Shown here one piece after another: positions 2,261 through 4,733 of a DNA stretch of 32,678 bases. The position numbers and the translations under genes are program-made. The stretch is taken from positions 1-32,678 of the forward strand of contig CANBWO010000014.1 in the NCBI GenBank assembly GCA_947373155.1, in the 5' to 3' direction. The stretch comes from Microbacteriaceae bacterium (GTDB lineage: Bacteria > Actinomycetota > Actinomycetes > Actinomycetales > Microbacteriaceae). The stretch's first letter is position 1. Every line of letters starts with the position of its first letter. Below the pieces are notes generated by a model. It made no database searches, was not told where the DNA came from, and saw only the letters and a list, made by a program, of their open reading frames with translations.

Positions 2261-2680
2261 TTGAGCGCCCGCACTAAGGCCCGCAAGCGCGCCGTAGACG
2301 CAATTTTCGCCTCTGACCTGCGCAAGGAAGACCCAAGTATTCTGCTTGGGGCAACCTTTCGTCAGGTTGAGGATCGTCAGAATCAAGACGAGATCTTTAC
2401 CTACGCGCAGCAAATCATCGATGGGGTAGTAGACAACCATTCTCAGATCGACGATCTGATTCAGACGTATTCGTTGGACTGGGATATCGACCGCATGCCG
2501 GCTCTTGACCGAGCTATTTTGCGGGTTGGAATTTGGGAAATCATGTACAACTCTGAGGTTCCAAACGGTGTTGCTATCAATGAGGCAGTAGAGCTGGCCA
2601 AGGAGTACTCAACCGATGAGTCCGGCGGATTTATCAACGGCTTGCTCAGCAAAATCAGCGCCACTCGCCAGGCTAAATAA
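2261..2680 (+). CDS. nusB: Transcription antitermination factor NusB
   Basis: NusB binds boxA RNA with NusE (S10) and supports rRNA antitermination. The 139-residue all-helical protein begins SARTKARKRAVDAIFASDLR and ends INEAVELAKEYSTDESGGF-INGLLSKI, both typical of NusB. The start is TTG at 2261, two bases after the efp stop; no ATG fits the conserved N-terminus. The last ~104 bases of the gene (2577-2680) are repeated at 4018-4121 beyond the protease gene. NusB is intact here, but its 3' end may have been supplied by the inserted segment rather than being the ancestral one. Confidence 0.95.
   Translation: MSARTKARKRAVDAIFASDLRKEDPSILLGATFRQVEDRQNQDEIFTYAQQIIDGVVDNHSQIDDLIQTYSLDWDIDRMPALDRAILRVGIWEIMYNSEVPNGVAINEAVELAKEYSTDESGGFINGLLSKISATRQAK
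2577..2680 (+). repeat. Direct repeat, left copy (3' end of nusB)
   Basis: Aligning this stretch with 4018-4121 at a constant offset of 1441 bases shows a core of 89 bases (2591-2679 against 4032-4120) with only two differences: G2618/T4059 and C2647/G4088. Similarity continues weakly 14 bases to the left with three differences. At the right end both copies finish on a stop at the same codon (TAA here, TAG there). This copy is inside the functional nusB frame. Similarity stops abruptly after the stop codon. Confidence 0.95.
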
Positions 2681-2723
2681 GACTGAAAGATTTCTGATAA
2701 GGGCTAAGCATCAAACGTTTCTC

Positions 2724-2733
2724 GGGGGGGGGG
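2724..2733 (+). repeat. G10 homopolymer in the ribosome-binding position of the protease gene
   Basis: Ten consecutive G, then AATT, then the ATG at 2738. No other Shine-Dalgarno-like motif precedes this gene, so the tract occupies the ribosome-binding site. Runs of this length are prone to slipped-strand length change, which would alter spacing or the leader but not the reading frame, since the tract is outside the coding region. It may also be a homopolymer length error in the assembly. Confidence 0.85.
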
Positions 2734-2737
2734 AATT

Positions 2738-3973
2738 ATGAGTTTTCGAGTCTCAAGGTACATTTTCGCGATTGCAGTTTTAGCTTCGCTTGTCGTTGGA
2801 CCTTCGGCTAAAGCCGAAGTTCCAGGTCTCGCAACTTACGATCGTGCGGAGTCGGTAGTCTCCAAAATATTCGCCGATTTTTCTGACTGCTCAACCCCTT
2901 CTGGTCTCAGTCAAGTTTTTTACAAATCATCTGAAAACAGCTTTTTTCTATATTGGAAAGGCTCAGTGGACAGTCGTGTTCAGGATTATGTTTCAGCACT
3001 TCCAATGGATGTCAAAGTGTTGGTTTCTTCGGCGCCTTATTCCTGGTGTGAGCTCGAGGCAACAGCAAATGCCGTGGTTGAAGAAGGAACATTGCTTGGT
3101 GTTTCGGTTGCTTACCCAGCCGAAAACGGAGGCTCAGTAATAGTTGAAACTCAAAGCGCCAATTCTGCCAGCCAGATTAGCGAAGTCCAGCAGAAACTAA
3201 ATGATTTGCCAGGCACGTTTTCGGCTGTAACCGTCGAAGGATCGAGTGAAGTAGTTGCCGCCTCGAGTAGACAAAGTGATAGTTCACCATGGTCGGGTGG
3301 CGCTGGCTATTTTTGGCCAATCGGAACGCTGGCGGCAAGATGTTCAACTTCAGCTGGGGTTTGGTCGGATGCTAATAACGTTCCTTATCTTCTTTCTGCA
3401 TCGCACTGTGTAGAGCCAGCCATTGGAAAAGTTATTACGACATACACGGGCGATGGAACTGCAGCAATAGGCAAAGTAGACATGACCAATACCGGTTATT
3501 ACAAGCCCGACAATGACGTGGCGGTCATCAAGCCAAACAGCAATACAGTGAGCGATCAGATGTTCCATGGTGGCATTTCCGCAGCCTCTACGTTGACTGT
3601 CTGGGGTGCCGGAACATCAAGCCTCTATCAATCCGTGTGCATCAATGGGGCCAACACAGGTAAGCACTGCAACGCACAGGTCACTGGTGTCGGCATGGTG
3701 GTCAGATACAACAACTATGATCGAAAAAACATGGTGAGAGCAGAATCTACAGATAGCACTTACATAGATGGCACCGGAGATTCCGGCGGGCCAGTCTTCA
3801 ACTATGTTTCAAGCACTAATCACTACATGCTTGACGGAATTATTGGAGGTCTTGATCCAAGTTCGGTAATTCCTTGCGGTGTAACTTTTGTGCCAAGCGA
3901 GTGCGCTAAAACCGCTTATTACGAGGATGCCGCTTCTGGTCTAACGGCAATTCACATGCATCTAAGTCACTAG
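2738..3973 (+). CDS. Secreted trypsin/chymotrypsin-fold serine protease with N-terminal prodomain
   Basis: This 411-residue protein has a Sec signal peptide: basic start, hydrophobic stretch at about 8-20, and likely cleavage after A24-K25-A26. Residues ~27-185 form an uncharacterised segment, probably a propeptide. From ~186 the peptidase shows the S1 triad: His223 in LLSASHC, Asp260 in DNDVAVI, and Ser349 in GTGDSGGP. Cys202/Cys224 resemble the His-loop disulfide; Cys301/311 and Cys380/389 are further likely pairs. It has no C-terminal anchor or sorting signal, so it is probably released. It sits alone between nusB 3'-end repeats and is AT-richer than its neighbours. The substrate is unknown; extracellular peptide scavenging is a plausible but unproven role. 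Confidence 0.88.
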   Translation: MSFRVSRYIFAIAVLASLVVGPSAKAEVPGLATYDRAESVVSKIFADFSDCSTPSGLSQVFYKSSENSFFLYWKGSVDSRVQDYVSALPMDVKVLVSSAPYSWCELEATANAVVEEGTLLGVSVAYPAENGGSVIVETQSANSASQISEVQQKLNDLPGTFSAVTVEGSSEVVAASSRQSDSSPWSGGAGYFWPIGTLAARCSTSAGVWSDANNVPYLLSASHCVEPAIGKVITTYTGDGTAAIGKVDMTNTGYYKPDNDVAVIKPNSNTVSDQMFHGGISAASTLTVWGAGTSSLYQSVCINGANTGKHCNAQVTGVGMVVRYNNYDRKNMVRAESTDSTYIDGTGDSGGPVFNYVSSTNHYMLDGIIGGLDPSSVIPCGVTFVPSECAKTAYYEDAASGLTAIHMHLSH

Positions 3974-4017
3974 TTGGACATCCAAATCCAAACGCTTTCA
4001 TTGAAATAGAAGGTTTT

Positions 4018-4121
4018 TCAATCAGGCATTCGAGCTGGCCAAGGAGTACTCAACCGATTAGTCCGGCGGATTTATCAACGGCTTGCTGAGCAAAATCAGC
4101 GCCACTCGCCAGGCTAAATAG
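4018..4121 (+). pseudogene. Displaced second copy of the nusB 3' end (right direct repeat)
   Basis: The segment encodes the last ~30 codons of NusB in one frame, from ELAKEYSTD to SATRQAK, but GAG has become TAG at 4059-4061, so it could not be read through even if fused to a 5' part. The other core difference, CTC to CTG in a Leu codon, is silent. It ends in its own TAG where the left copy has TAA. There is no start codon or upstream nusB portion. It is either the original nusB terminus displaced by an insertion or a duplication that has begun to decay. Confidence 0.9.
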
Positions 4122-4131
4122 CCAAATCAAC

Positions 4132-4140
4132 TGGTAGTAT
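4132..4140 (+). promoter_or_regulatory. Candidate extended -10 promoter for the pyr operon
   Basis: TGGTAGTAT matches the extended -10 pattern TGnTAnnnT. No convincing -35 box is seen at the usual distance, which would fall inside the nusB repeat; extended -10 promoters often lack one. A transcript would start near 4147, a few bases before the PyrR hairpin, giving a leader of about 47 bases ahead of pyrR. The placement makes functional sense, but the call is by eye. Confidence 0.4.
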
Positions 4141-4152
4141 TGCAAGAAATCA

Positions 4153-4188
4153 TCCTTTAACGTTCGTCCTGTGAGGCGAAGAAGGAGG
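4153..4188 (+). promoter_or_regulatory. PyrR-binding RNA hairpin overlapping the pyrR Shine-Dalgarno site
   Basis: The loop sequence GTCCTGTGAGGC (4166-4177) matches the PyrR recognition core UCCNGNGAGG. It is closed by TTCG (4163-4166) pairing with CGAA (4177-4180). A lower stem pairs TCCTT (4153-4157) with AAGGA (4182-4186), separated by the asymmetric internal bulge typical of PyrR sites. The lower right strand is part of the Shine-Dalgarno sequence GAAGGAGG (4181-4188), 5 bases before the GTG at 4194. The arrangement implies that UMP-bound PyrR stabilises the hairpin and blocks ribosome access, as described for Mycobacterium smegmatis. There is no terminator hairpin, so attenuation of the Bacillus type is unlikely. 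Confidence 0.8.
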
Positions 4189-4193
4189 TGGGC

Positions 4194-4733
4194 GTGACTA
4201 CACGCACCGTCTTGAGTAGTGGCGACATCGATCGGGCAATCACCCGAATCGCGCACGAAATCGTGGAATCTAACCACGGAACCAAAGGCCTCACTTTGCT
4301 GGGCATTCCTACTCGCGGCATTCTACTGGCCGAGCGAATCGCGTCGGTAATCCAGCGTCACTACCCGGAGTTCGACGCCGCTAGCAGCACCGGCAAACTC
4401 GACATCACAATGTACCGAGACGACCTGGCAAAGAACCCAACCCGTACAGTCAGCCCAACCAGCATTCCAGCCGGGGGCATCGATGACGCAGTTGTGGTCT
4501 TGGTAGACGACGTTCTTTACAGTGGCCGCACTATTCGAGCCGCGCTTGATGCCCTGAACGATCTGGGTCGTCCGAGCGTAGTTAGGCTTGCAGTACTGGT
4601 TGATCGTGGCCACCGAGAACTTCCGATTCGTGCCGATTTCGTTGGCAAGAACCTTCCCACTTCGCGCGATGAGCGCATCAATGTGCAGTTGACAGAAAAC
4701 GATGGAGAAACCTGCGTGGTGATCGAATCATGA
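4194..4733 (+). CDS. pyrR: Bifunctional pyr operon RNA-binding regulator / uracil phosphoribosyltransferase PyrR
   Basis: PyrR senses UMP/UTP and binds pyr leader RNA; many members also have weak uracil phosphoribosyltransferase activity. Starting at GTG 4194 ([13 protein letters not shown]) gives 179 residues with a good Shine-Dalgarno 5 bases upstream. The alternative GTG at 4188 overlaps that site and adds only two residues. RIAHEIVE and [16 protein letters not shown] are typical, and [19 protein letters not shown] is the PRPP-binding loop. The gene ends in the only TGA stop of the window, overlapping the pyrB ATG by four bases (ATGA). Another in-frame stop (TAA at 4740) follows two codons later. 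As first gene of the operon it is subject to its own control. Confidence 0.95.

Follow-up and report, generated by a model that had tools for sequence, protein, structure and literature searches.

A single gene for a predicted secreted trypsin-like serine protease has been gained between nusB and pyrR in a Microbacteriaceae bacterium, where the functional nusB gene lies on one side of it and a second, displaced nusB 3′ end on the other. The pattern occurs at five genes in one genus, and we consider it fairly probable that it arises by recombination in which the incoming DNA brings a gene 3′ end that serves as the anchor, and not by site-specific integration. The locus was read on the forward strand of contig CANBWO010000014.1, of which the 32,678 nucleotides analysed here are referred to as the window.

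The functional nusB gene (positions 2261–2680; 139 amino acids from a TTG start; Pfam NusB, E = 2.7e-35) ends in the first repeat copy (2577–2679), the right edge of which falls one base short of the end of the nusB stop codon. The second copy (4018–4120), a displaced nusB 3′ end joined to native downstream sequence, directly abuts the pyrR leader (4122–4187). This leader contains a hairpin resembling a PyrR-binding site (4153–4186), which matched Rfam RF00515 with 28.6 bits (E = 0.46) and did not reach the gathering score of 54, and is followed by pyrR (4188–4733; GTG start at 4188 or 4194; Pfam Pribosyltran, E = 2.1e-21). The two 103-nucleotide copies are identical at 98 of 103 positions (95%), a match far better than chance would give (BLAST E = 6e-41). 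Three of the differences lie in the first 14 nucleotides and two in the last 89; the original prediction of direct repeats of the nusB 3′ end around a single protease gene, with an 89-base core differing at two positions and a constant offset of 1441, is thus borne out exactly. Because the second copy carries an in-frame TAG (4059–4061), it represents a displaced, broken copy of nusB. The only long open reading frame between the copies is that of the protease (2738–3973), which, with a G+C of 0.479 against 0.517–0.573 for the surrounding aroB to carB region, is indeed AT-richer as predicted. Neither a third copy of the repeat nor a second copy of the protease gene was found in the window's own assembly (a 54-contig draft of 1.57 Mb, 91% complete), and the repeat core had no match in viral contigs.

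Comparison of the nusB-pyrR interval among relatives, which had been proposed as a check, identified the interval as an otherwise empty site. When we searched 67 genomes of the genus by DNA (the window's own included), the nusB-pyrR region was found in 65, and in all 29 relative loci that were fetched, including that of the closest relative (G044, contig CAIYOE010000018.1), only 51–113 bases separate the nusB stop codon from pyrR. Pairing from coordinates alone, a procedure that excluded relatives having one piece only, gave a gap of 57–112 nucleotides in 48 relatives. The converse outcome, in which every relative carries the protease with both repeats and no empty site exists, is contradicted by these 29 empty loci, and the protease is absent from all 29. 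The unit between the repeats is therefore an insertion. In the closest relative, nusB outside the repeat is 85% identical, and the second repeat copy runs into the same leader (57 of 66 positions), which identifies the displaced copy as the holder of the native end; the functional gene differs from this native terminus (TAA versus TAG; one base plus its flank). No donor in which nusB is directly followed by this protease was found in the genome contigs or in the 398 family, 396 phylum and 67 genus genomes.

The last 52 nucleotides of nusB (2629–2680) are 61% identical to those of the closest relative, compared with 83–85% for the rest of the gene, and have their closest match, at 75%, in G027. 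A replaced tail was considered as a mark of the insertion and dropped, since the divergent tail is common to both repeat copies and so marks no insertion.

From its sequence, the 411-residue cargo protein is assigned as a secreted trypsin-like serine protease, with a signal-peptide-like N-terminus (by eye), an N-terminal region and a catalytic domain. Its match to Pfam Trypsin_2 (E = 3.8e-5; 24.9 bits) lies below the cut-off of 27.6, and an alignment identified His223, Asp260 and Ser349, in that order, as invariant in four homologues, of which that in G045 passes the Trypsin profile (PF00089; 32.6 against a cut-off of 20.6). The secreted actinobacterial proteases of the S1 type share this catalytic order and the GDSGGP motif, and homologues from plasmids of the Streptomyces group are 22–29% identical among the matches listed. 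Two features set the window protease apart from them: it has no close relative in the collections searched, and a region like its N-terminal part is a stand-alone protein in three relatives.

The homologues are patchily distributed. A single-sequence search at E = 0.001 returned 6 of 398 family genomes and 2 of 396 phylum genomes, the window's own counted in each, and within the genus 8 of 67 genomes at E = 1, four of them strong (E about 1e-19 or better). Profile searches gave matches in 32 of 398 family genomes (E = 0.001) and in 8 of 67 genus genomes (E = 0.01), the latter comprising four proteases, three stand-alone proteins resembling the N-terminal region and one weak match. Relatives of the protease were not confirmed in the genome contig or viral contig collections; phage sequences gave no match by DNA or protein, plasmids gave none by DNA and 24 distant records by protein, and PHROGs and NCBIfam gave none. 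Weak matches were found to two PDB entries (6xhz, E = 0.0015; 8jjr, E = 0.026) and, for the catalytic part, to one PADLOC entry (LmuA, E = 3e-4).

The stand-alone proteins (185 residues in G014 and G060, 204 in G050) have by eye a signal- or anchor-like N-terminus, and their genes sit behind heliorhodopsin or rsmD; they could possibly be inhibitors or remnants. Apparent stops in G014 and G060 had suggested broken proteases, a reading rejected when both proved to be intact stand-alone frames of 185 residues. Immediately 5′ of the protease start in the window is a run of ten G (2724–2733), the only homopolymer longer than seven in the window, at ribosome-binding distance from the start; at this place the related genes of G054, G065, G060 and G014 show a shorter run, of five or six G. 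Slippage in the length of this run could tune or switch expression of the protease.

Related proteases, 23–37% identical, recur in the same arrangement, with the functional gene on one side and its displaced 3′ end on the other, behind heliorhodopsin in G054 and behind rsmD in G045. The G054 cargo, the protease with one small gene, is followed by a second heliorhodopsin 3′ end (104 nucleotides, 86%), which leads into the native terminator and the isochorismatase gene, so that heliorhodopsin and isochorismatase are 2594 nucleotides apart, compared with 69 at the empty site of G043. The G045 cargo likewise comprises the protease and one small gene, here in the opposite orientation, and is followed by a copy of the rsmD 3′ end (164 nucleotides, 84%), the native terminator and a gene resembling citrate synthase (by eye), as in the empty G040; here the distance is 2025 nucleotides, compared with 65. 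An origin of the left part of the displaced rsmD copy from a G005-like species was considered and dropped, the local alignment being longer to the rsmD of G045 itself. In both genomes the outgroup comparison showed the displaced copy to be native and the end of the functional gene to be non-native, over about the last 11 nucleotides of heliorhodopsin and the last 15 of rsmD. A functional gene with a non-native terminus is thus seen in all three cases that have an outgroup (nusB, heliorhodopsin and rsmD), and the altered last 11–15 bases suggest that the incoming DNA carried its own gene end.

Related genes are present at the same places with no visible repeat behind heliorhodopsin in G065, G060 and G014 and behind rsmD in G050, the contig of which stops 800 bases beyond the islet. 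The proteases of G054 and G065 are 35% identical and their heliorhodopsins 94% (residues 122–279), which indicates that these cargo genes either arrived independently or have been replaced.

We surveyed 1.65 Mb for repeats consisting of an intact gene and a displaced fragment (0.45 Mb of the window's own genome, G000; 0.60 Mb of G001; and 0.20 Mb each of G006, G026 and G054). Four families were identified (nusB, heliorhodopsin, dienelactone hydrolase (DLH) and purL), all four at 3′ ends and with repeat edges from 6 nucleotides before to 11 nucleotides past the end of the stop codon; no displaced 5′ end was found in the 1.65 Mb, and no displaced-fragment repeat in the stretches of G006 and G026. 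The other repeats were paralogous genes in G001 and G026, a 62-nucleotide pair (79%) inside two open reading frames in G000, and one larger block in G001 that is described below. Together with rsmD (Pfam Cons_hypoth95), these families bring the targets to five, none of which is a tRNA gene.

The pattern extends beyond protease cargo, as seen in G001, a single-contig genome of 1,430,433 bases that is probably Rhodoluna lacicola. Here DLH and purL point towards one another from the two ends of a 29.6-kb stretch of cargo (97780–127359), and each has three copies of its 3′ end with blocks of cargo between them. The cargo includes genes for sugar transport and sugar use, a fibronectin-type surface protein, an NYN protein, a nucleotidyltransferase, HsdM (an N6-methylase) with HsdS and HsdR recognised by eye, and several unknown proteins. 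The inner edges of the copies vary, giving lengths of 243 and 92 nucleotides for purL and 237 for DLH, with 212 between the two displaced DLH copies; decay of old copies could contribute to this variation. In G006 (102608–108536) DLH and purL flank an island of 5.9 kb whose cargo is of another kind, by eye resembling defence genes, and there are no displaced copies. Neighbouring blocks of the DLH island of G001 also contain two copies (92% by DNA; 108787–109464 and 111874–112563) of a gene for 225–229 residues with no Pfam family, and in G026 two tandem genes (508 and 477 residues) share a 72-base 3′ end (115883–115954 and 117320–117391; 96%).

These comparisons bear on two alternatives. That the structure is an artefact of assembling a metagenome bin is extremely improbable: the window's genome is a 54-contig draft, but the two nusB copies differ at five positions, the structure recurs in the drafts of G054 and G045, and the single contig of G001 shows it at other target genes. 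In the second alternative, unrelated DNA was inserted illegitimately and a staggered break or template switch duplicated about 100 bases of the target, both copies being native. The near-identical core common to both copies in the window would fit such a true target duplication, whereas the clustering of repeat edges at stop codons in all four survey families and the non-native terminus of the functional gene in G054 and G045 would not, and we regard it as quite improbable.

A different explanation is site-specific integration, in which a tyrosine recombinase supplied in trans by a helper phage or island would recognise an attP-like gene 3′ end, the recombinase gene lying off the cassette. Restored 3′ ends, tandem arrays and cargo lacking a recombinase are typical of such accretions and speak in its favour. 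A candidate enzyme also exists, as the window's genome contains three tyrosine recombinases, two of XerC/XerD size and one integrase of 410 residues. This integrase, however, lies about 1.8 kb from a tRNA-Arg gene (G000 contig 10, L046) among island-like genes, which by eye include a primase-like frame and frames resembling type I restriction-modification genes, and its locus looks like an ordinary integrated island. No serine recombinase of the resolvase family (PF00239) was found in the window's genome, and no recombinase was identified among the Pfam matches of the G054 and G045 cargo or among the 21 cargo frames of the G001 island scanned against Pfam, four further frames lying outside the scan. 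If site-specific recombination were at work, each enzyme should have a single attachment core and the edges should be fixed, yet the five target 3′ ends gave no common core in 10 pairwise comparisons against shuffled controls (lowest p = 0.06), a comparison that a short degenerate site would escape. The inner edges, moreover, differ within one target gene. Attachment cores are usually shorter than the repeats observed, which span 92–243 nucleotides. We accordingly judge this explanation unlikely, albeit less so than a target duplication. As for the element-like insertion that was originally predicted, a gained unit, the lack of a recombinase and the restored nusB end stand, while the analogy to site-specific elements is not supported, given the lack of a common core, the varying inner edge and the repeat-less islets at the same genes. 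Excision of the unit as a 1441-base circle, which was also suggested, would be feasible in principle. On the same contig 10 (L046), a 55-base terminator-like repeat (2917–2971 and 3026–3080; 98%; spacing 109) is present at a tRNA-Ser gene.

Under the favoured reading, that of an anchor in a gene 3′ end, the incoming DNA would have contained the protease gene joined to a 3′ end like that of nusB and would have been inserted by homologous, RecA-dependent recombination within that end. The functional nusB would then keep its own body and take its last bases from the incoming DNA, with the cargo next to it, and the native 3′ end would be pushed downstream together with the native pyrR leader, where it would now be decaying. 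The far junction could have formed in one of two ways: through another match within the gene, either short or degenerate, as when a circular or permuted fragment enters by insertion-duplication, or through illegitimate joining, as in homology-facilitated illegitimate recombination. Since homology ends where the gene ends, repeat edges at stop codons would be expected; the model also predicts a non-native terminus, inner edges that vary, insertions added one after another and the occasional islet lacking repeats. Counting against it are the inner edges of the displaced copies, which in G000, G045 and G054 fade gradually and do not break off, the absence of a visible repeat at the related islets of G065, G060, G014 and G050, the stretches of G006 and G026 with no displaced-fragment repeat, and the lack of a donor in the collections named above. 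At the second DLH copy the edge looks sharp. The incoming DNA likely entered by natural transformation, for which the host type is suitable, as both R. lacicola (with linear and plasmid DNA) and Aurantimicrobium photophilum are described as naturally transformable in the portion of the source available (PMC11577799).

One repeat is not explained by an anchor in a gene 3′ end. This is a G001 repeat about 0.8 kb long (290968–291798 and 301685–305659), which does not consist of a gene end; its second copy is split by 3.1 kb, which contain a small helix-turn-helix-like gene and a primase-like gene of 791 residues (by eye); its first copy adjoins the 3′ end of a hemL-like gene. An identity as rRNA was rejected when no rRNA or tRNA family matched.

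A more speculative extension, which we put forward with considerable doubt, is that, in this genus, a core-gene 3′ end that has been captured acts as a homing sequence: recombinase-free islets would leave the chromosome as circles by recombination between their flanking repeats, enter new cells by natural transformation and land behind the same gene. If so, cargo such as proteases with pro-domain-like partners, defence genes and sugar-use genes would move and accrete with no mobility gene.

Insertion with long target duplication was reportedly described by Nobusato et al. (2000) for restriction-modification genes in Helicobacter pylori. As portrayed in the sections available of four later papers, it consists of a strain-specific gene block flanked by a long direct repeat of the target sequence, and the cargo is often, though not by definition, restriction-modification genes (PMC1643837, PMC4978471, PMC2749054, PMC3154945). 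As far as those sections go, the nusB islet resembles it in that the corresponding site lacks the insert in all 29 relative loci fetched, and in the 103-nucleotide, 95% identical direct repeat of the target at both ends. The cases described here differ in three respects: what is duplicated is a protein-coding gene's 3′ end, with the repeat ending at the stop codon; in three cases the terminus of the functional gene is non-native; and a secreted protease recurs as cargo.

Another parallel is offered by the type VI secretion effector-immunity arrays of Vibrio cholerae and by Rhs loci, in which, according to the accessible part of one report, a single homologous anchor admits a new 3′ part with its cargo and the old 3′ part is pushed downstream, repeated events build arrays, and homology-facilitated illegitimate recombination is proposed (PMC5361080). 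To the extent covered there, the likeness lies in a homologous anchor on one side with incoming sequence beyond it, matched here by the non-native terminus in three of three cases; unlike those arrays, the islets here use housekeeping genes as anchors and leave their products almost unaltered, and their cargo has no relation to the anchor gene. In aquatic bacteria, additive flexible genomic islands and tycheposons likewise accumulate cargo at a single location that recurring copies of a gene 3′ end mark out; in the excerpts available, the additive islands of Methylophilaceae have repeats of the last 20 bases of tRNA-Lys (PMC10872708). So far as these excerpts describe them, tycheposons start at a tRNA and have a tyrosine recombinase, whereas the islets here involve 92–243 bases of protein genes and, in contrast to any integrase-type island, show no tRNA target, no common core and no recombinase that we could find. 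By title and abstract, the open-licence literature on genomic islands and direct repeats in Rhodoluna contained nothing on insertions at gene 3′ ends. The geometry itself is already known; what seems new is the use of housekeeping 3′ ends as anchors, the recurrent protease cargo and the two-sided arrays.

How small, streamlined plankton genomes with few phages, integrases and insertion sequences gain genes is, in our view, an open question. The array-bearing complete genome is probably that of R. lacicola, which is cultured and naturally transformable, making the mechanism directly testable. If islets are anchored in the 3′ ends of core genes, a displaced gene end would be a searchable scar of a single insertion, and arrays would record the order in which insertions occurred.
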